Position numbers and translations under genes: made by a program
Notes under the pieces: generated by a model
Databases searched by the model: none
What the model saw: the letters and a program-made list of their open reading frames with translations, nothing else
What the model was told of the DNA's origin: nothing
Source of the DNA: Alloyangia pacifica
GTDB lineage: Bacteria > Pseudomonadota > Alphaproteobacteria > Rhodobacterales > Rhodobacteraceae
Assembly: GCF_003111685.1 (NCBI RefSeq)
Contig: NZ_CP022191.1
Coordinates: forward strand, 186,001 to 250,000
Direction of reading: 5' to 3'
Length of the DNA stretch: 64,000 nucleotides
Part shown: one piece after another, positions 47,236 through 56,086 of the stretch
How the letters are laid out: every line of letters starts with the position of its first letter
How positions within the stretch are numbered: position 1 is the first letter of the stretch

Positions 47236-48477
47236 TCACTGCTTCTTGAGCTTGACCTGTTCCAGCGACCAGTACTCCATGTCGAAGAGATCGCGCTCGG
47301 AAATGGGAGTGAAGCGCCGGTAGGCCTCGGCGGCGTTCACCACACGGCAGGTCTGCTCGAAGAGATCCCCCGCGATGCGTGCCGCCTTCATGTTCGCGCC
47401 GACCCCGAAGATGCCTGCGCCCGGCACGAGGATGACGCGCGGCAAGGGGTCGAGCATGACCTTTTCTTCGGCTGCGTGGGGCGCATTGCGCTCAAAGTAA
47501 GCGCGGTATTCCGCGGCGAACCCGTCGAGCGCGGCGTCGATCTCCTCGCGCGTGGCGCCCGCCTGGAGCAACATGCCGAAGGGTTTCAGCCGGATCACGT
47601 GGTCGGGGGTCACCGTACCGCGCCGCGCGAGCTCCGGCAGGTCGTCACGCCCGAGATAGGCGCGGATCGCGGGGGTCGAGCGGAAGTCGAGGGCCGGCTC
47701 ATCGCCAAGCGCGTCGCGCGCGGCGAGCGCGTCGGCAAGGTCGCGAACCAGCGCTTCGGGTGCCGTGCGGTCGGTGTCTTCCGGGGCCGGAACGGTGATA
47801 CCACGCGCCGCGAGGTAGTCCTCTGCCCTGGTCACGAACTCGATCATCAGCTCGTAGCTCTCGCGCGCCGTCTCGGCGAAGGTGAAGAGCCCGTGCTGCG
47901 CCAGCCAGAGCCCCTCGACCGAGGGATCGCGCGCCAGCGCGTCCTTGCAGGCGTGGCTGAGATTGTAGCCCGGCATCACGTAGGGCACCCAGCCGACCCG
48001 CCCGCCGAAGATCTCCTGCACCACCGGCTCCATGTCGGCCTGGTCGGCCAGCACGAGGATCGCCGTTGCGTGGGTGTGATCGACGAAGGCATGTGGCATG
48101 TAGGCATGCAGCAGCGCCTCGACCGAGGGGTTGGGCGCGGAGGCATCGAGCAGGTGGCTGCGCAGGAACGCGACCATGTCCTCGTCCGACATGCGCGGCA
48201 CGTCGCGCGTCTCGAGCAGCGGCGCCAGATGCATGGCCGGCAGGCCCGGCGCCTCGATGTCGCCGAGATCCCAGCCCGAGCCCTTGACGTGGATCACCGT
48301 GCCTTCCGCCGCCGGGATCTTCACCGAGGTGTTGCCGCCGCCGTGCAGAACGAGGTCCGGGTCCTGCCCGATCAGCCGCGAGCTGTAGACCCGCAGCCCC
48401 AGCGCGGCGGGCTCTCCCCGGGCCTCGGCCCCGGCCGCGAAGGCCTCAGCTTCCTTGTCGTTCCAGCGGCTCTGCAT
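47236..48477 (-). CDS. RhaD-like class II aldolase without the dehydrogenase domain
   Basis: 413-residue zinc aldolase. It has VLHGGGNTSVK (phosphate loop, 44-53), the zinc pair in HTHAT (134-138) and a third His in AQHGLFTF (195). It matches the N-terminal part of the long RhaD-type aldolase/SDR proteins (about 700 residues), but stops right after DMEYWSLEQVKLKKQ, where the SDR domain would begin. It lies 68 nt downstream of lsrB in the lsrACDB operon, the place of lsrF elsewhere. A role in splitting the phosphorylated AI-2 product is possible. ATG 48477 follows AGGGAG. Confidence 0.82.
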   Translation of the reverse strand: MQSRWNDKEAEAFAAGAEARGEPAALGLRVYSSRLIGQDPDLVLHGGGNTSVKIPAAEGTVIHVKGSGWDLGDIEAPGLPAMHLAPLLETRDVPRMSDEDMVAFLRSHLLDASAPNPSVEALLHAYMPHAFVDHTHATAILVLADQADMEPVVQEIFGGRVGWVPYVMPGYNLSHACKDALARDPSVEGLWLAQHGLFTFAETARESYELMIEFVTRAEDYLAARGITVPAPEDTDRTAPEALVRDLADALAARDALGDEPALDFRSTPAIRAYLGRDDLPELARRGTVTPDHVIRLKPFGMLLQAGATREEIDAALDGFAAEYRAYFERNAPHAAEEKVMLDPLPRVILVPGAGIFGVGANMKAARIAGDLFEQTCRVVNAAEAYRRFTPISERDLFDMEYWSLEQVKLKKQ

Positions 48478-48498
48478 CTCGGTTCTCCCTGTCATGGA

Positions 48499-48523
48499 CC
48501 GGGGGCGCCGCAAGCGCCCCCGG
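48499..48523 (-). other. Perfect 10-bp hairpin after lsrB
   Basis: CCGGGGGCGC (48499-48508) pairs with GCGCCCCCGG (48514-48523) across a 5-nt loop, between lsrB and the aldolase gene. It has no T run. Like the hairpins after the two other binding-protein genes, it may stabilise the lsrB message or reduce read-through to the aldolase. Confidence 0.6.
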
Positions 48524-48545
48524 GTGGTCTGTGGCAAAAGCGGCC

Positions 48546-49562
48546 TCAGAAGTCGTAGTTGTCGATGTTCTCGGCGTTAAAAACGGTGCGTTCGGGCAGC
48601 AGGATGATGCCATTGCCCTCGGCCTCGTAGTCGTAGCCCTGCACCGCGTTCGGCGAGACCTCGACCGGGCCGATGCCCGGCACGTCGATGCTGTCACCCA
48701 CGTTGAGCGGGCCGTCCTTCAGCACATGCGCCGCCACCGCGACCGAGATCGCCCCTTGCTGTGTCACGTCCCAGAGGCCGAACCGCTCGACCGTGCCGCG
48801 CTTCACGTAAGGGCGCATCACGTTCGGTGTCGAGAAGCCCACGATGGTCACCTCGCCGGCGCGGTCCAGATTCTCGGCTGCCTGAGCCGATGCCGGGAGC
48901 GCGTTGGCGTCGGGCGCGATGATCGCGTCAAGGTCGGGATAGGCGCCAAGGATGCTCTCGGCGGTCTGCAACGATTTCTGCGCGTCGTTGTAGCCATATT
49001 GCGTGGTCACGATCTCCCAGCCCGGGTGCTCGGCGGCGATCTTGGCCTTGGCGGCCTCGGCCCAGGCATTCTGGTCGGTCACGGTCGGCGAAGAGTAGAA
49101 GAAGGCGACCTTGGCCTTTTCCTTGCCGGCGAGCCCGTCATCCGCCATGTCCACGAGCAGCCCGCCAAGCTGGTCCGGCGTGCCCTGGTTGATGTAGTAG
49201 GAGCGGCACTCGGGGTTCACGTCGCTGTCCCAGGTCATCACCAGCACGTCGCGGGCCATCGCCTGCTTGAGCGCCGGGCAGAGGCCGTCGGGCGAGACCG
49301 AGGAGAGCACGATCGCGCCGTAGCCCTGGTTGACGAAGTTGTTCACGAACTGAACCTGGCCCGAGACGCTGGGCTCGGTCGGGCCGTCATAGGTCACGTT
49401 GACTCCAAGCTCGTCGCCCATGGCCATCGCCCCGTTCCCACCCGAGGTGAAGAAGCCCACCCCGACCAGTTTCGGGATAAAGGCGATGTCTTGGGCGCTC
49501 GCGACGTTGGCGGCCATCAGGCCAGCCGCAACTGTACCAAGCAGCGTCAGGGATTTACGCAT
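48546..49562 (-). CDS. lsrB: Autoinducer-2 binding protein
   Basis: 338-residue periplasmic protein with a signal peptide (cut near [12 protein letters not shown]). It is very close to E. coli and Salmonella Lsr[57 protein letters not shown] and the C-terminal LLPERTVFN. The AI-2 contacts known in LsrB (Lys in PKLVG, Asp in TWDSD, Asp in PDANALP, the Pro-Ala region) are kept. This supports true AI-2 binding rather than ribose or rhamnose. It starts 35 nt after lsrD. Confidence 0.95.
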
Positions 49563-49597
49563 GGTGTTTCCTCCTCCATTGAAACAAGTGCCCGGGG

Positions 49598-50581
49598 TCA
49601 GTGCGTCTGCCGCGAGCGGACCGGTAAGAAATCCCGAAGCAGCTCAGCGCCGTGGCGCAGGGCGACTACGAGGACCAGCAGCGCCCCGGACAGCGCGCTG
49701 GAAATCTGACTGGGCACACCGCTCATCTGCAGGCCCTGCTGCAGGTAGCCGATGATGAACGTGGCGATGATCGTGCCCAGCACCGAGCCCTGACCGCCGT
49801 AGATCGAGGCGCCTCCGAGCACGGCCGCAGTGATCGCCGGCAGCAGCGTTGCGCTGCCGAGATCGACCCGGGCCGAGCCGAAATAGGCCGATAGCATGAG
49901 CCCCGCGAGCGCCGCGGCAAGGCCGGTCAGCACGTAGGTCACCAGCTGCACACGGAAGACAGGCATACCCGAATGGCGCGCAGCGTGCTCGTTCTGACCG
50001 ACCTGGAACACCAGCCGTCCGAACCGCGTCAGGTGCAGCAGGACCAGCAGCAGCGCTGCAAAGCAGAGAAACACGAAGAGCGGCATCGGCAGGCCCAGCA
50101 CCTGTGCGTATCCAAGCGCGGTGAAACCGGCGGGAAAGCCGCCGATGCCTTCGTAGCCACTGGCGCCGACCAGCCCCGAGAGCACGGTCGCCGCGCCCGA
50201 GAACATGTAGAGCGAGCCCAGCGTCACCACCAGCGGCTGCAACCGCGTGAGCCGGATCACCACCGCGTTCAGCAGTCCTGCGGCTGCACCGGTGGCAAAA
50301 CCCACCAGCAGCGAGAGCGGCAGCGGCAGCCCGAAGAAGTTGGCGATGCCAAACGTGATCGCGGCAAGCCCCACGGTCGATGCGAAGCTCACGTCGATCC
50401 CTCCGGCGATGATCACCAGGGTCAGCGGCACGGCGACGATGCCCACCTGCACGAAGTCCGAGGTCCCGAACAGCAGCGACGCGGGCCGCAGGAAGCGCGG
50501 GTTGATCATCCCGAAAATGGCGAGCTCGGCCAGCAGCACCGCGAAGAGCAGCACTTCCCAGCGCATCAAGTGGCGTTTCAT
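49598..50581 (-). CDS. lsrD: Autoinducer-2 ABC permease LsrD
   Basis: 327-residue permease with eight to ten predicted membrane segments. It closely follows E. coli Lsr[38 protein letters not shown]-type [12 protein letters not shown] and [20 protein letters not shown]. It overlaps lsrC by 4 nt. With LsrC it forms the channel for AI-2. Confidence 0.93.
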
Positions 50582-51588
50582 GCGGCATCCTCCAGGTCGC
50601 TGCGCGGGGCGATCTTGTGGCTCGAGCGGCGGTAGCGCGCGGCCCGGTCACGGGCCTCGAGCGCGATGCGCAGCCGGCCGTCGATCAGCAAGACGGTCAG
50701 CAGCATGCCGCCGCCGATGAGGTCGTTCCAGTAGGCGGGGATCTTGAGGAACACGAGCGAGGTGTCGATGGAGGTGAAGAAGATCACCCCGATGACCACG
50801 CCCGCCACGGTCCCCACGCCGCCAAGCAGGCTGATCCCGCCGAGCACCAGCGCGGCGATGGCGCGCAGCTCGATGCCGCTGCCCGCCTGGTTCGGCACAA
50901 AACCGATCTGCGCGGCGAAAGTGATCCCGGCCAGCGCGTACATCGCGCCGCCCCAGGCGAAGCAAAGGAACTCGATGCGCTTCACCGGCAGCCCGAGGTG
51001 GCGCGCCGCGGCGCGGTTGTCGCCGACGACCTTGACCCAGCCGCCGCGGCGCGAGCGCAGGAACAGCCAGAGCAGCACGATAACACCCGCGGCGACCAGC
51101 CCCATGACCGACAGGCCCGCGACCGACTTGGCGCCGAGCGCCTTCAGCGCCTCGGGAAGCTCCTCGATCCACTCCCCGCCGGTGGCGATCAGCATCACCC
51201 CGCGGAAAAGCCCGAGCGTGCCGAGCGTCGCCACGATCGAGGGCACGCCGAGCAGCGCCACGAGCGCGCCGCTGAGCGCCCCGGCCATCACCCCGACACC
51301 AAGCGCCGCGCCGCAGGCGAGCGGCAACGCGACGCCGGCGTTGAGCGTCAGACCCAGGGTCACCGCCGAGAGCCCGAGCACCGAACCGCCAGACACGTCG
51401 ATGTTGCGGGTCAGGATGATCGGGAAGATCCCCAGCGCCACAAGCATCAGCACCAGACCGTTGGACCAGATGATGCTCGCGGTGTGCGCCGACAGGAAGC
51501 CCGGCGCCGCGGCGCCGACCGCCAGCAGCACGGCCAGCGTGACGAGGAAGAGCGTCGCGACACGGTCGCGGGCGATGCGTTCAAGCAT
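50578..51588 (-). CDS. lsrC: Autoinducer-2 ABC permease LsrC
   Basis: 336-residue permease. The helices [20 protein letters not shown] and [15 protein letters not shown] and the loop [20 protein letters not shown] match LsrC of enteric bacteria. I start at ATG 51588, which overlaps the end of lsrA by 8 nt, rather than an in-frame ATG at 51615 deeper in lsrA. Its stop overlaps lsrD. Confidence 0.92.
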
Positions 51589-53056
51589 GGGCGGCCTCCC
51601 CGGCCTCGAAGGCAAGCTGTGCGATGTCGTCGGTGCTGGACCCGGCGGGCAATTCTCCCGCGAAATGGCCCCCCGCCATCACCGCGATCCGGTCCGAAAG
51701 GCGCAGCACCTCATCGAAGTCGGACGAGATCAGCAGCACCGCGGTGCCGGTCTCGGCGAGCTCCTCGATGATGCGGTAGATGTCGTTGCGCGCGCCCACG
51801 TCGACGCCCCGTGTCGGCTCGTCGAGGATCAGCACCCGCGGCGCCGCGGCCAGGCATTTCGACAGCAGGACCTTTTGCTGATTGCCGCCCGACAGGCTGC
51901 CGACCGGCTGGTCGGGTCCGGCACAGCGGATGCCCAGCGACTTGCGGTACGCTGCGAAACGGCGGCGTTCCTGCCCGGGCCGCAGCAGGAAGGGCAGCCG
52001 GTCGTGCACCAGCGACGAGGTGTTCCAGTAGAGCGGCGCCTCGAGGAAGAGCCCGTATTGCTGCCGGTCCTCGGAGAGGTGCACCACCCCCGCCTTCACC
52101 GCCGCCCCCGGCCCCCTGGCCTTGAAGTCTCGGCCTTCGAGCGTGACCCGCCCGCCGCTGCGCGGGCGCAGTCCAACCAGCGTCTCGGCCAGTTCCGTGC
52201 GCCCCGCACCGACGACGCCAGTCAGCCCGAGGATCTCTCCCGCGCGCAACGACAGCGAGATGTCGACGAAGCCCTCGCCGCTCAGCCCCTCGAGGGACAG
52301 TACCGGCGCGCCGGTGATCTCGCGCTGCCGTTCGCGCACATCGAGCGCGGTGACGCCCGGGCTCATGGCAGCAAGTATATCGGCGTCGGGGCTCGCGCTC
52401 ATCCGCTCGCTCAGCACAACGTAGCCGTCACGCAGCACTGTGATCCTGTCGGAGACCGCGCGCAGCTCGTGCAGCTTGTGGGAAATGAAGACAAGCCCGT
52501 GCCCTTCGGCGCGCAGCGCACGCATGTGGCCAAACAGCGTCTCTACCTCGTGCGGCGTCAGCGCCGAGGTCGGCTCGTCGAGGATCAGCACCTTGGCCTC
52601 GCGCAGCAGCCCGCGCAGGATCTCGACGATCTGCCGGTCGGCGATTTCCAGCGTCGCGGCCTTGGCATCCGGCGACAGCGAAACGCCGAGTTGGGCAATC
52701 AGCTCCTCGACGCGCGCGCGGTAGGCACCGGCGGGCTTCGGCATGCCGACGCAGATATTCTGGAGCACCGACTGGTTGGGGAAGATATGCGCTTCCTGCG
52801 GAACGAGGTAGAGACCCATTGCCTGCGCCTGCGCGGGAGTCGCGGGCGAGAGCTGCGCGCCGCCGAGCCGGACTTCGCCGCCCGATGCGGACACGAGCCC
52901 CGCGAGAATTTTCATCAGCGTCGACTTGCCCGCACCGTTGCCCCCCAGCAGGGCATGAACCTCGCCGGAGCGGATCGTGAAATCGACCGCCTTCAGCACG
53001 GGGACGCCCGCGTAGCTTTTCGACACGGACTTCAATTCCGCGAGAACAGTTTCCAT
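51581..53056 (-). CDS. lsrA: Autoinducer-2 ABC ATPase LsrA
   Basis: 491-residue double ATPase. The first half has Walker [29 protein letters not shown] and DEPTSALTP. The second half has a degenerate Walker A ([10 protein letters not shown]), as in LsrA and other sugar-type ATPases, with signature [13 protein letters not shown] and [16 protein letters not shown]. Sequence agreement with E. coli LsrA is high along its length ([17 protein letters not shown]). It is the first gene of the leftward lsr operon, with GGAGG 7 nt before ATG. Confidence 0.93.
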
Positions 53057-53271
53057 GACGCCTCCTCACCGATGCCGAGCGCGAGCCGACCACCAGTTGA
53101 TGTTCATTTGCACTCTTCGCCATCATTTGTGCAGCCATCATACGTCGTGTCAATCTGATTCTGCGCATTTATAGGGCACAATCGCCGCATAATTGGGCAG
53201 TTGACTTGATCAATTATTTGATGAAGAACTATTATGATCTCGCTTGCAGCTCGCAGGAAAGGACCCGCCCG
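53057..53271. promoter_or_regulatory. lsrA-lsrR divergent promoter region
   Basis: This AT-richer 215-nt gap separates the two lsr transcripts. It holds a perfect TTGATCAA palindrome at 53206-53213, and CATTTG repeated at 53105-53110 and 53124-53129. LsrR homologues repress from such divergent gaps until phospho-AI-2 binds. Which sequence is the operator is not settled by inspection. Confidence 0.5.
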
Positions 53272-54210
53272 ATGATGGAACAGCCTCAGAGCGCCACCGA
53301 CGATGCCCTCATGGCGCGCGTGGCCTGGCTCTATTACAACGATGGGCTGACCCAGAGCGAAGTCGGCGACATCCTCAACATCTCTCGCATAAAGGTCTCG
53401 CGCCTGCTCGACGCCGGGCGCAGCTCTGGACTCATCCAAGTGCGGATCAACTCGCGCCAGCAGGGTTGCCTCGAGCTCGAGACCCGGATGCGGCAACAGT
53501 TCGACCTGAGCGACTGCCGGGTGATTCCCGAAAGCTCGGTCGCAGACGTGAACCTGCGCGTAGGGCAGGCCGCCGCCCAGTACCTGATGCAGAAGCTGGC
53601 CCCGGGCGAGACGCTGTCGGTCGGGTGGGGCGAGACCATCACCCATTCGATCCGCATGCTGGGCCACACAGCGCAGGAGCGCGGCATTGGCCTCTATTCG
53701 CTCACTGGCGGCGTGCAGACCTACGTCGAGGGGATGCGCGAGGCGAACTGGCATCGCAACATCAACATCATCCCGGCGCCGCTGGTGGTCTCGACGCCCG
53801 AACTGGCGCGCGCGCTCATGCAGGAGCCGTCCATCGCCGCGCTCATGGCGCAGGCGCTCGAGGCGGACTACAAGCTGGTTGGCATCGGCGGGCTGAGCGA
53901 GAGCGCGACGGTGGTGACGCAGGGCTACATCCCGGCGGGCGAGATCGATCCGCTGCGCCGGGGCGGCGCGCGCGGCGACATCCTCTGCCGTTTCTACGAC
54001 CGTCGCGGGCAGGACATCGGCGTGCCGCTGCACGACCGGGTGGTCGGCGTCGACCTCGAACAACTGCGCGCCTCGGACCGGGTGATCGGCGCGGCGGGAG
54101 GGCCGAGCAAGACCGGTCCGATCCTCTCGGCCCTGCGCGGCGAAATCCTCGACATCCTGGTCACCGACGAGCCGACCGCGCTCGCCCTTCTCGACGCGGC
54201 GGAGGCCTGA
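53272..54210 (+). CDS. lsrR: AI-2 response regulator LsrR (SorC family)
   Basis: 312-residue SorC-family repressor, close in length to E. coli LsrR (317). The N-terminal helix-turn-helix is LTQSEVGDILNISRIKVSRL. The sugar-phosphate-binding domain includes LSVGWGETITHSIRML and, near the C-terminus, DRVIGAAGGPSKTGPILSAL. It should sense phospho-AI-2 made by LsrK. I start at ATG 53272, nine bases after GGAAAGGA; an in-frame ATG at 53206 has no ribosome site and overlaps the candidate operator. Confidence 0.92.
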   Translation: MMEQPQSATDDALMARVAWLYYNDGLTQSEVGDILNISRIKVSRLLDAGRSSGLIQVRINSRQQGCLELETRMRQQFDLSDCRVIPESSVADVNLRVGQAAAQYLMQKLAPGETLSVGWGETITHSIRMLGHTAQERGIGLYSLTGGVQTYVEGMREANWHRNINIIPAPLVVSTPELARALMQEPSIAALMAQALEADYKLVGIGGLSESATVVTQGYIPAGEIDPLRRGGARGDILCRFYDRRGQDIGVPLHDRVVGVDLEQLRASDRVIGAAGGPSKTGPILSALRGEILDILVTDEPTALALLDAAEA

Positions 54211-54212
54211 GC

Positions 54213-55742
54213 ATGCCCTATTTCCTTGCTTTCGATGCCGGCACCGGCAGCGGCCGCGCCGTGCTCTTCGACGACACCGGCGCCGAGATCGCGGCCTCCG
54301 GACAGGAATGGTGGCACGCCACCGACCCCCGCTTCCCCGGCTCGATGGATTTCGACACCGCCGGCAACTGGGCCGCGCTGGCGCGCTGCTGCCGCGAGGT
54401 GATCGCGGCAAGCGGGATCGACCCCACCGAGATCCGCGCGGTCAGCGCCACCGCCATGCGCGAAGCCTTCGTGCTGCATGACGCCAGCGGCGCCGAAATC
54501 TGGGCCTGCGCCAACGTTGATGCCCGCGCGGGTGACGAGGTGCGCGAGCTTAAGCGGGCCCACCCCGGGCTCGAGGCAGAGATTTACGCACGCTCCGGCC
54601 AGACCTACGCGCTTGGCGCCCTGCCCCGTCTCGCCTGGCTGCGCCGCCACGCGCCGGAAACGCTCGACCGCGCGCGCAGCCTCACTATGCTCTCGGATTG
54701 GATCCTCTACCGGCTCTCGGGCGAGCTGACGCTCGAGCCCTCGAACGGCGGCACCACGGGCCTGCTTGATCTGCGGACCCGCGCGCCGCTGACCGGGGCG
54801 CTGGAAACCGTTGGCCTGCCCACCGATCTCTTTCCCCGCGGCGTCACCACCGGCGAGGTCATTGGCAAGGTCCATGCCGCTGCCGCGGCCGAAACCGGTC
54901 TGGCCCCCGGCACGCTGGTCGTCGCCGGCGGCGGCGACTGCCAGACCGGCGCGCTTGGACTCGGCATCGTGCACGAGGGAGACTGCGCGGTGCTGGGTGG
55001 TACCTTCTGGCAGCAGGTGGTGAACGTGCCCCTGTCGCTCACCGATCCGAGCATGACTCTACGCATCAACCCGCACATGGTTGCCGGGCTCAACCAGGCC
55101 GAGGCGATCAGCTTCTTCACCGGCGCGGTCATGCGCTGGTTCCGCGATGCCTTCGGCAACGGCAAAGGCTACGCGGCGCTCGAGGCCGACTCGATGGCCG
55201 TGCCGCCCGGCGCCTATGGGATCATCCCGATTTTTTCCGACGTCATGCGCTACGGCGACTGGTTCCACGCCGCGCCTTCACTGCTCAACCTCTCGCTCGA
55301 CGCGGCCGCCTCGGGTCCGGCCGCGATCTTCCGCGCGCTGCAGGAGAACGCGGCCATCGTCGCGCGGCGGAACCTCGAGGCCGTCTTTGCCCTCACCGGC
55401 CACCGGCCCGAGCGCCTGGTCTTCGCCGGCGGCGCCGCGAAATCCGCCCATTGGTCGCAGATCCTTGCCGATGTCACCGGGCTGACGGTGGTCACGCCGA
55501 AGGTGACCGAGGCCACCGCACAGGGCTGCGCCTCGGCGGCGGCGACCGGTGCTGGCCATTTCGCCTCGCTCGCCGAGGCGGGCGGTGCCTGGACGCGGAT
55601 CGAACGGACCTTCACCCCCGATACGGCGCTGCGGCCGCTCTACGACGAGGCCGGCGAGCGATGGGCCAAGGCCTATGCCGCGCAGCGCCAGCTCGTGCTT
55701 GACGGCACCACCACCTCGATGTGGCAGGCGCCCGGCATCTGA
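54213..55742 (+). CDS. lsrK: Autoinducer-2 kinase
   Basis: 509-residue FGGY kinase that phosphorylates the open form of AI-2 (DPD) in the cytoplasm. It follows E. coli LsrK closely: LAFDAGTGSGRAVLFD, WACANVDARAGDEV, GTFWQQVVN and EAISFFTGAVMRWFRDAFG. A glycine-rich ATP loop (FAGGAAKSAHWSQILAD) is near the C-terminus. It starts 2 nt after lsrR and should produce that regulator's inducer. Confidence 0.94.
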   Translation: MPYFLAFDAGTGSGRAVLFDDTGAEIAASGQEWWHATDPRFPGSMDFDTAGNWAALARCCREVIAASGIDPTEIRAVSATAMREAFVLHDASGAEIWACANVDARAGDEVRELKRAHPGLEAEIYARSGQTYALGALPRLAWLRRHAPETLDRARSLTMLSDWILYRLSGELTLEPSNGGTTGLLDLRTRAPLTGALETVGLPTDLFPRGVTTGEVIGKVHAAAAAETGLAPGTLVVAGGGDCQTGALGLGIVHEGDCAVLGGTFWQQVVNVPLSLTDPSMTLRINPHMVAGLNQAEAISFFTGAVMRWFRDAFGNGKGYAALEADSMAVPPGAYGIIPIFSDVMRYGDWFHAAPSLLNLSLDAAASGPAAIFRALQENAAIVARRNLEAVFALTGHRPERLVFAGGAAKSAHWSQILADVTGLTVVTPKVTEATAQGCASAAATGAGHFASLAEAGGAWTRIERTFTPDTALRPLYDEAGERWAKAYAAQRQLVLDGTTTSMWQAPGI

Positions 55743-55777
55743 GGCTTCCCATTCTTCTACTCACAAAGGACAAGGTC

Positions 55778-56086
55778 ATGCTGATCCAACTCGTCAACAT
55801 CAAGGTTCAGGAAGGCACGCGCGACACCTTCCTCAAGGCTTTCACTCTGAACTGCGAAGGCACGCGCAAGGAGCCGGGCAATCTGCGCTTCGATTTGCTG
55901 CACGACCCCGCAGACGAGAACAACTTCTACGTCTACGAGATCTTCGAGAGCGAGGCCGCTCTGGACGAGCACCGCAAGACCCCGCATTACCAGACCTGCG
56001 TGTCAATGATCGATCCGATCACCCTCGGCGGACGCAGCAAGACCTACTTCTCGCCGGTGCTGATCCAGGACCAGGCGCCCGCCTGA
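55778..56086 (+). CDS. lsrG: Phospho-AI-2 isomerase LsrG
   Basis: 102-residue protein of the antibiotic-biosynthesis-monooxygenase (ABM) fold. LsrG isomerises phospho-DPD to 3-hydroxy-2,4-pentanedione 5-phosphate. Matching blocks are GNLRFDLLHDP, NFYVYEIFESEAALDEH and the strongly conserved TPHYQTCV. It is 35 nt after lsrK, behind AAAGGA. The next enzyme, LsrF, is missing here. Confidence 0.9.
   Translation: MLIQLVNIKVQEGTRDTFLKAFTLNCEGTRKEPGNLRFDLLHDPADENNFYVYEIFESEAALDEHRKTPHYQTCVSMIDPITLGGRSKTYFSPVLIQDQAPA

Follow-up and report, generated by a model that had tools for sequence, protein, structure and literature searches.

How does a bacterium complete the breakdown of the signal autoinducer-2 (AI-2) when its lsr operon has no gene for the last enzyme, LsrF? 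The question is raised by a 64,000-nucleotide stretch of Alloyangia pacifica DNA (the window; contig NZ_CP022191.1, positions 186,001 to 250,000), in which positions 47236 to 56086 hold an lsr locus complete except for lsrF: lsrA, lsrC, lsrD, lsrB and a class II aldolase gene lie on the minus strand, and the divergent lsrR, lsrK and lsrG on the plus strand. We regard it as reasonably likely that this aldolase has replaced LsrF and cleaves the LsrG product to dihydroxyacetone phosphate (DHAP), probably together with acetate, without coenzyme A (CoA). Judged by sequence, the aldolase-type locus is a conserved variant of the lsr pathway, and the bacteria that carry it probably finish AI-2 digestion by a reaction differing from that of LsrF. 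The original prediction, made from the letters of the window alone, had set a "RhaD-like" aldolase in the place of lsrF and given it a different cleavage of the phosphorylated C5 product; it is partly supported, being largely right in direction and loose in its rhamnose label.

The replacement recurs. The window's LsrB was scanned against bacterial and archaeal genomes, giving 119 relatives, the best 80 of which were kept as LsrB loci; an Escherichia coli locus (L002) was added as a yardstick, for a total of 81 loci, 34 of them with LsrF. Among the best 80, an aldolase gene lies right after lsrB in 42 (including L005 and L030, where it is cut by a contig end), lsrF is present in 33, neither gene in five and both in none. 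This recurrence is far beyond chance. The distance between lsrB and the aldolase gene is 66–125 bases across loci, and LsrG, LsrK and LsrR accompany the aldolase in each of the 39 loci long enough to include the other arm (L018, L031 and L043 stop short); the LsrG product should therefore still be made. Where its frame is full-length, in 40 lsr loci, the aldolase is a stand-alone protein of 410–419 residues (trimmed to the matched start) with no dehydrogenase half. No gene is conserved downstream of it across the aldolase loci, and a conserved partner at that position, such as a split-off dehydrogenase, was rejected on this ground. The aldolase takes lsrF's place in Rhodobacterales, Rhizobiales-type families and Thalassospira. 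Its carriers include Sinorhizobium meliloti 1021 and 4H41 and Tritonibacter mobilis, presumably the same species as Ruegeria mobilis, the strain examined being NBRC 101030 and not Rm01 (L136, L044 and L006, respectively); on pSymB of S. meliloti 1021 the gene order is the same, and the kinase aligns in two pieces. The five loci with neither enzyme are L025, L028, L034, L052 and L063, with aldolase remnants in L034 and L063. A mere loss of the last step was rejected, as 42 of the 47 loci that are not of the LsrF type hold the aldolase.

LsrF was found neither in the locus nor elsewhere in the genome. The best match of the NCBIfam LsrF model in the genome reaches 23 bits against a cut-off of 297, and E. 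coli LsrF as a query finds at best 30% identity over 87 residues (E 0.0018); an lsrF hidden elsewhere in the genome was rejected on these weak matches, and the predicted absence of lsrF thus extends beyond the operon. LsrF-type genomes, which score 487–554 bits, served as the positive control for this search; E. coli, among 14 control genomes, fell under both the LsrF and the LsrK cut-offs and so gave none, that control strain probably being without lsr. LuxS gave no match in the genome, and five of the 14 control genomes, E. coli included, do match. Whole-genome searches for LsrF and the aldolase were extended to 52 genomes (G489/G680 and G672/G715 are probably the same genomes, having identical coordinates); the set leaves out L025, L039, L042, L043 and L063 and takes in five of the 33 LsrF-type loci. 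Of these genomes, 42 represent aldolase-type loci (in three of them lsr has no aldolase, and in two a contig end truncates it). LsrF exceeds its cut-off in nine of the 52: G493, G606, five other LsrF-type genomes and two Shinella. Within the 42 aldolase-type genomes, the two Shinella are the ones with LsrF over cut-off, in both cases outside lsr, and the five other LsrF-type genomes contain no aldolase homologue at E 1e-15. G493 has another LsrF copy above the cut-off that lies apart from its lsr operon (G493:C36:23475-24344).

The aldolase gene (47236..48477, minus strand; 413 residues) encodes an enzyme with the expected catalytic residues. Its start is likely the ATG at 48477 and not the upstream TTG at 48537, because a 97% identical gene in the same locus on plasmid plas3 of A. 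pacifica T6124 is annotated at that length. The protein matches Pfam Aldolase_II (PF00596) with 80.5 bits (cut-off 22.2). The HTHAT stretch noted earlier occupies residues 134–138, and it and the phosphate loop proved intact: His134, His136, His195, Glu120, Asn49-Thr50-Ser51, Lys65, Ser67-Gly68 and Ser118 show no variation among the 41 aligned lsr aldolases, and neither do the GGGNTS and KxSG stretches. They correspond to the residues for metal, catalysis and phosphate in aldolases of the FucA type. An AlphaFold model (predicted local distance difference test score, pLDDT, 87; predicted template modelling score, pTM, 0.87; residues 69–77 poor) has the class II aldolase fold. Foldseek ranked 3m4r first for this model, followed by YgbL, another aldolase II protein, FucA and DrdA, with RhaD lower and further members of the class II fold also matched; the sequence match to 3m4r spans residues 24–226, and the remainder is an extension common to fusion enzymes. 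Domain score, metal-binding histidines, catalytic glutamate and predicted fold together place the protein in the class II aldolases (AraD/FucA fold).

The label "RhaD-like" fits this enzyme only loosely. The best curated family is NF006192, an aldolase/short-chain-dehydrogenase fusion, at 472 bits (cut-off 639) over the aldolase half; the RhaD model TIGR02632 gives 251 bits, below its cut-off of 568, and the LsrF model NF006081 gives no match at E 0.001. The frame stops at the domain border, without the C-terminal short-chain dehydrogenase/reductase (SDR) domain that the fusion family has. The genome's one paralogue at E ≤0.001 is a RhaD-type fusion, 31–34% identical, which scores 1069 bits on the RhaD model and has Asp at position 120, where the aldolase has Glu; the two share the superfamily and a long aldolase half with a C-terminal extension, and the aldolase differs in lacking the SDR half. 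Because this separate RhaD fusion exists, the idea that the aldolase serves the genome as its rhamnose enzyme was rejected; several of the closest fused kin of the aldolase, moreover, adjoin MtnK/MtnA and not rhamnose genes.

The link to LsrK and LsrG also holds independently of LsrB. Four loci without LsrB (L139:2002-11200, L140:1391-9536, L161:5503-13323 and L164:436-10332), in G517, G457, G892 and on Roseicitreum antarcticum pRA01, combine a LuxP-like receptor with LsrK, LsrR, LsrG and the aldolase. Their content is lsrK, lsrR, a ribose-type permease, a binding protein, a single ATP-binding domain, an RbsD/FucU gene, lsrG and the aldolase gene. In the two loci profiled, L139 and L140, the kinases exceed the LsrK cut-off and the LsrG matches lie below theirs. 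The best solved relatives of the binding protein are Vibrio LuxP (E 7e-47 for L139, 3e-44 for L164), with sugar-binding proteins far behind, and the binding proteins of L140 and L161 are 74–75% identical to that of L139. Of eight contact residues of LuxP, six can be read as kept in the LuxP alignment and two differ. LuxP-like matches occur in 26 of 317 genomes, 24 of them at 33–38% identity; L162 and L163, two of these 24 distant cases, have no LsrK, LsrG or aldolase match within 19 kb, and only the four close loci were therefore counted. The family genome search found no LsrF match over cut-off in G457 or G517. The association of the aldolase with LsrK and LsrG thus holds with either receptor. 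The LuxP-like protein may bind AI-2, and the four loci are a possible LuxP-fed system of AI-2 import and catabolism in Rhodobacterales.

In trees of the aldolases, the 41 from lsr loci cluster together, with the stand-alone aldolase of L118 adjoining (support 98/92 with L118, 91/96 without). The stand-alone enzymes linked to LsrK fall into a single clade (97/94, in a tree given 13 of the 41), whose support drops to 80/91 once an enzyme from Sagittula is included; the program flagged long branches for the outermost rows. Trp191 and Thr288 are constant in the lsr aldolases, where several relatives have Ile, Leu or Phe at 191 and Val at 288; the pair sets them apart from the MtnKA-linked fusions, and the Sagittula enzyme has both. 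In an LsrK tree of 81 rows, built by a quick method, the aldolase type is a single clade with a Shimodaira–Hasegawa approximate likelihood ratio test (SH-aLRT) value of 100, nested in the LsrF type, a nesting that depends on rooting with the kinases of L116–L118. Because the aldolase clade falls inside the LsrF type, the LsrK tree suggests a single replacement of LsrF by the aldolase.

Relatives outside lsr point to the kind of substrate involved. The nearest are stand-alone enzymes beside LsrK or an LsrK-like kinase (51–55% identity), followed mostly by aldolase–dehydrogenase fusions (41–53% over the aldolase half). In eight of the 25 neighbourhoods examined outside lsr the fusion adjoins MtnK and MtnA, as verified by profile in L119 and L143 and by eye in the other six. 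By analogy, this set points to 5-deoxyribose or 5-methylthioribose as the substrate, cut to DHAP and an aldehyde; other aldolases have been shown to cleave intermediates of these sugars in this way (available text of PMC6079011 and PMC10986504). The LsrG product has the skeleton of the fusions' probable substrate with one carbon oxidised. Neither MtnK nor MtnA occurs among the profiled lsr genes or among the genes annotated in the 21 kb that surround the near-identical locus of Alloyangia. LsrF itself is found over cut-off near MtnK, MtnA and a ribulose-phosphate 3-epimerase-like gene in G387 and G403, and near MtnK and such an epimerase-like gene in G551 (L143:5996-17597 and L144:637-5977 with mtnK/mtnA; L147:1063-8371 with mtnK only), and may serve 5-deoxysugar catabolism outside AI-2. 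LsrF and the aldolase thus appear to move between the same two pathways, as if serving substrates of the same skeleton. Two further arrangements were seen. On Sagittula sp. MA-2 plasmid p3 (L165:251-10158), lsrF is followed directly by a stand-alone class II aldolase gene, with an FGGY kinase, a glycerol-3-phosphate dehydrogenase-like gene, a sugar-binding transcriptional regulator and a sugar ABC transporter as neighbours. L118:249-11173 and L138:1341-11260 combine an LsrK-like kinase (38–39%), a stand-alone aldolase, a glyoxalase-family protein, sugar-type ABC genes and a 2-hydroxyacid dehydrogenase-like gene recognised by eye.

The anatomy of the locus favours cleavage of the LsrG product with release of DHAP. 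Going by their gene families, LsrB and LsrACD would import AI-2, LsrK would phosphorylate it and the phosphorylated form would lift LsrR repression, after which LsrG would isomerise phospho-4,5-dihydroxy-2,3-pentanedione (P-DPD) to 3-hydroxy-5-phosphonooxypentane-2,4-dione (P-HPD). In the known pathway LsrF transfers the acetyl group to CoA and frees DHAP, as the available text of PMC8016206 describes along with the chemistry of LsrK and LsrG; here the last step would fall to the class II aldolase in place of this CoA thiolase. We infer the substrate, the products and the independence of CoA from the following considerations. The LsrG product, CH3-CO-CH(OH)-CO-CH2-OP, can be viewed as the 4-keto form of a 5-deoxy-ketopentose 1-phosphate, the type of compound cleaved by related class II aldolases. 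With the DHAP half bound to the metal, the molecule would be cut between the acetyl carbon and the CHOH carbon and DHAP set free, as happens with rhamnulose- or 5-deoxyribulose-1-phosphate. Stabilising the DHAP enediolate is already part of what a class II aldolase does, and if such an enzyme acted on the hydrated ketone, DHAP and acetic acid would be its direct products. As the carbon that leaves is a (hydrated) ketone from the outset, the other product would be acetate and not an aldehyde; such direct release would explain why LsrG is kept and why the dehydrogenase half, expected to deal with an aldehyde in the fusions, is gone. A broader proposal, which we put forward tentatively and hold with less confidence than this cleavage itself, is a second, CoA-independent ending of AI-2 processing in Alphaproteobacteria: the aldolase would have been recruited once from a 5-deoxysugar-phosphate fusion by loss of the dehydrogenase and would split the LsrG product to DHAP and acetate, in a core fed either by LsrB or by a LuxP-like receptor that has an ABC importer to itself, such that borate-type and non-borate AI-2 are eaten alike by bacteria that do not produce the signal.

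The alternative that survives best, although we consider it unlikely, places a reduction first: an unlinked reductase would make a 5-deoxy-ketopentose 1-phosphate, which the aldolase would split to DHAP and acetaldehyde in the style of the DHAP shunt. The closest fused kin do carry a dehydrogenase, several of them beside MtnK/MtnA, and DrdA turns 5-deoxyribulose 1-phosphate into DHAP and acetaldehyde (PMC6079011, available text); against this, no gene is conserved after the aldolase and its clade has no fused dehydrogenase. It is improbable that the enzyme acts on P-DPD or another LsrK product, before or instead of LsrG. The L118 and L138 modules, with their LsrK-like kinase and no LsrG in view, would suit such an order, but the constancy of LsrG in the 39 informative lsr loci and in all four LuxP-like loci argues otherwise, and P-DPD has no keto group next to the phosphorylated carbon, which DHAP release requires. 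We give equally little credence to a co-regulated sugar aldolase (for rhamnulose-, fuculose- or 5-deoxyribulose-1-phosphate) unrelated to AI-2 degradation, with P-HPD decaying or being handled by another enzyme. Fold and residues are indeed those of ketose-1-phosphate aldolases, and the five lsr loci without both enzymes would fit; however, the locus of the near-identical Alloyangia plasmid has no annotated sugar isomerase and no annotated sugar kinase besides LsrK, the link recurs with two receptor families, and the genome has its separate RhaD fusion. Finally, an lsrF too divergent to detect is very improbable, since the 340-residue frame that holds the weak 87-residue similarity (G000:C1:2158233) scores 23 bits against the cut-off of 297 and LsrF matches in the window's family score 480–507.

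Several points nevertheless weigh against replacement of LsrF by direct cleavage of the LsrG product. Known class II aldolases perform retro-aldol cleavage of hydroxy compounds, and to our knowledge hydrolytic cleavage of a 1,3-diketone would be a new reaction for the fold. The last step may be dispensable, as the five lsr loci with neither enzyme allow. A further 17 of the 42 aldolase-type genomes match the LsrF model more weakly (67–109 bits; cut-off 297), through proteins resembling class I aldolases, the type to which LsrF itself belongs. The LsrK tree is weakly rooted, the fork to the Pleomorphomonas-type LsrF loci having a value of 84. Sagittula sp. MA-2, Shinella (L116/L117) and G387 have non-lsr loci that hold both LsrF and a class II aldolase; full mutual exclusion was dropped for this reason, and the two enzymes are not plainly interchangeable everywhere. 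The Sagittula enzyme is likewise stand-alone, with neither LsrK nor LsrG alongside. No LsrG was seen at L118 and L138, members of the stand-alone clade, and since their kinase is only LsrK-like as well, the substrate range of that clade may be wider.

With the lsr operon of E. coli and Salmonella (lsrKR-lsrACDBFG) the locus shares the transporter, kinase, repressor, isomerase, divergent layout and the position after lsrB (layout compared with E. coli); it differs in having a class II aldolase for LsrF, in lsrG lying behind lsrK and in that no luxS was found. LsrF (NF006081, 3-hydroxy-5-phosphonooxypentane-2,4-dione thiolase) would share the substrate and the release of DHAP with the aldolase, and no sequence similarity between the two was found: LsrF is a CoA-dependent thiolase, according to the available text of PMC8016206, whereas the aldolase has a metal-dependent class II fold. 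The DHAP-shunt enzymes DrdA and Ald2 and the mtnKA-linked aldolase–SDR fusions have the class II fold (6btg, 6btd) and a likely substrate skeleton one oxidation step apart, and the mtnKA-linked fusions are the aldolase's closest kin beyond the LsrK-linked clade. These systems differ in that the window's lsr locus has no MtnK/MtnA and its aldolase no dehydrogenase domain, and DrdA is of a short type (203–207 residues), distant in sequence from the window aldolase.

The locus type has been met before. The lsr-like loci of Rhodobacter sphaeroides and S. meliloti described by Rezzonico and Duffy (2008; PMC2561040) are, as far as the available text goes, of the same type: the operon is given as lsrBDCARKG, without F, and the aldolase is unmentioned in that text. 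The accessible part of PMC3420918 names R. sphaeroides, R. capsulatus and S. meliloti as carriers of lsr homologues and, for a different putative Rhizobiales system, counts fructose-bisphosphate aldolase as an LsrF synonym. Ruegeria mobilis has LsrA, B, C, D, K and R according to the corresponding part of PMC6333666, which also shows responses to AI-2 and notes for S. meliloti and R. mobilis Rm01 a response to AI-2 without its production. The open-licence literature yielded no description of an aldolase in lsr, key subscription papers lying outside that search, and how responders such as S. meliloti and R. mobilis end the signal is a question not raised in the literature found. If the proposed role is correct, AI-2 degradation would have evolved twice, from unrelated folds, and the signal's carbon would enter metabolism as DHAP, probably with acetate. 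The annotation "class II aldolase/adducin family protein", which the plas3 gene of A. pacifica T6124 bears (its LsrG being called "antibiotic biosynthesis monooxygenase"), would then conceal a signal-degrading enzyme, and the coupling of a LuxP-like receptor to import would be a testable new AI-2 system.

Within the window's bacterial family the lsr system is patchy. Among 295 family genomes, LsrB occurs in six, LsrK over cut-off in eight, LsrF over cut-off in seven and an aldolase homologue (E ≤1e-90) in 35; G470, of the same genus, has no LsrB, and in a sparser class-wide sample LsrB is found in one of 385 genomes, the window's own. The eight genomes with LsrK comprise three with LsrB and the aldolase (G000, G435, G489), two with LsrB and LsrF (G493, G606), two with the aldolase and no LsrB (G457, G517) and one, G672, that has LsrB but whose lsr genes include neither enzyme. 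Of the seven LsrF genomes, two have LsrK over cut-off and five do not.

The remaining genes of the locus were identified by scoring with NCBIfam profiles against each model's curated cut-off. LsrB (48546..49562, minus strand; 622 bits, cut-off 384), LsrA, the ATP-binding protein (51581..53056, minus; 697 bits, cut-off 586), and the AI-2 kinase LsrK (54213..55742, plus; 776 bits, cut-off 528) exceed their cut-offs. For the other four, the lsr model is the top match yet stays under its cut-off: the permeases LsrD (49598..50581, minus; 373 bits, cut-off 500) and LsrC (50578..51588, minus; 335 bits, cut-off 388), the repressor LsrR (53272..54210, plus; 285 bits, cut-off 486) and the P-DPD isomerase LsrG (55778..56086, plus; 99 bits, cut-off 135). 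For LsrG this is the sole profile match, and much of its conserved pattern is common to the LsrGs of LsrF-type loci. All seven lsr genes named in the original prediction are therefore present, four of them below the curated cut-off, and so are the AI-2 contact regions it read in LsrB. Compared with solved structures, the window's LsrB matches S. meliloti LsrB (3EJW) at E 1.6e-176, and its six AI-2 contact residues, which we take to be K35, D116, D166, Q167, P220 and A222 in Salmonella numbering, are all identical to those of solved LsrBs in the alignments. Of the parts of an Lsr uptake system, LsrB with its contacts, LsrACD, LsrK with LsrR, and LsrG were thus found, and the LsrF thiolase was not. 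The lsrR start at 53272 follows the annotated start of a 99% identical Alloyangia gene, a longer frame opening at 53206. The region between the divergent lsrA and lsrR (53057..53271, no strand) would, from its position, have a regulatory role.

The spacer between lsrB and the aldolase gene (48478..48545, minus strand) contains an AGGGAGA stretch resembling a ribosome-binding site before the ATG and a predicted GC-rich hairpin (−31.4 kcal/mol, z −2.2; eight of 200 shuffles equally good), which perhaps stabilises the mRNA after lsrB. A simple local hairpin of differing sequence is predicted in the same spacer of seven of eight folded relatives.

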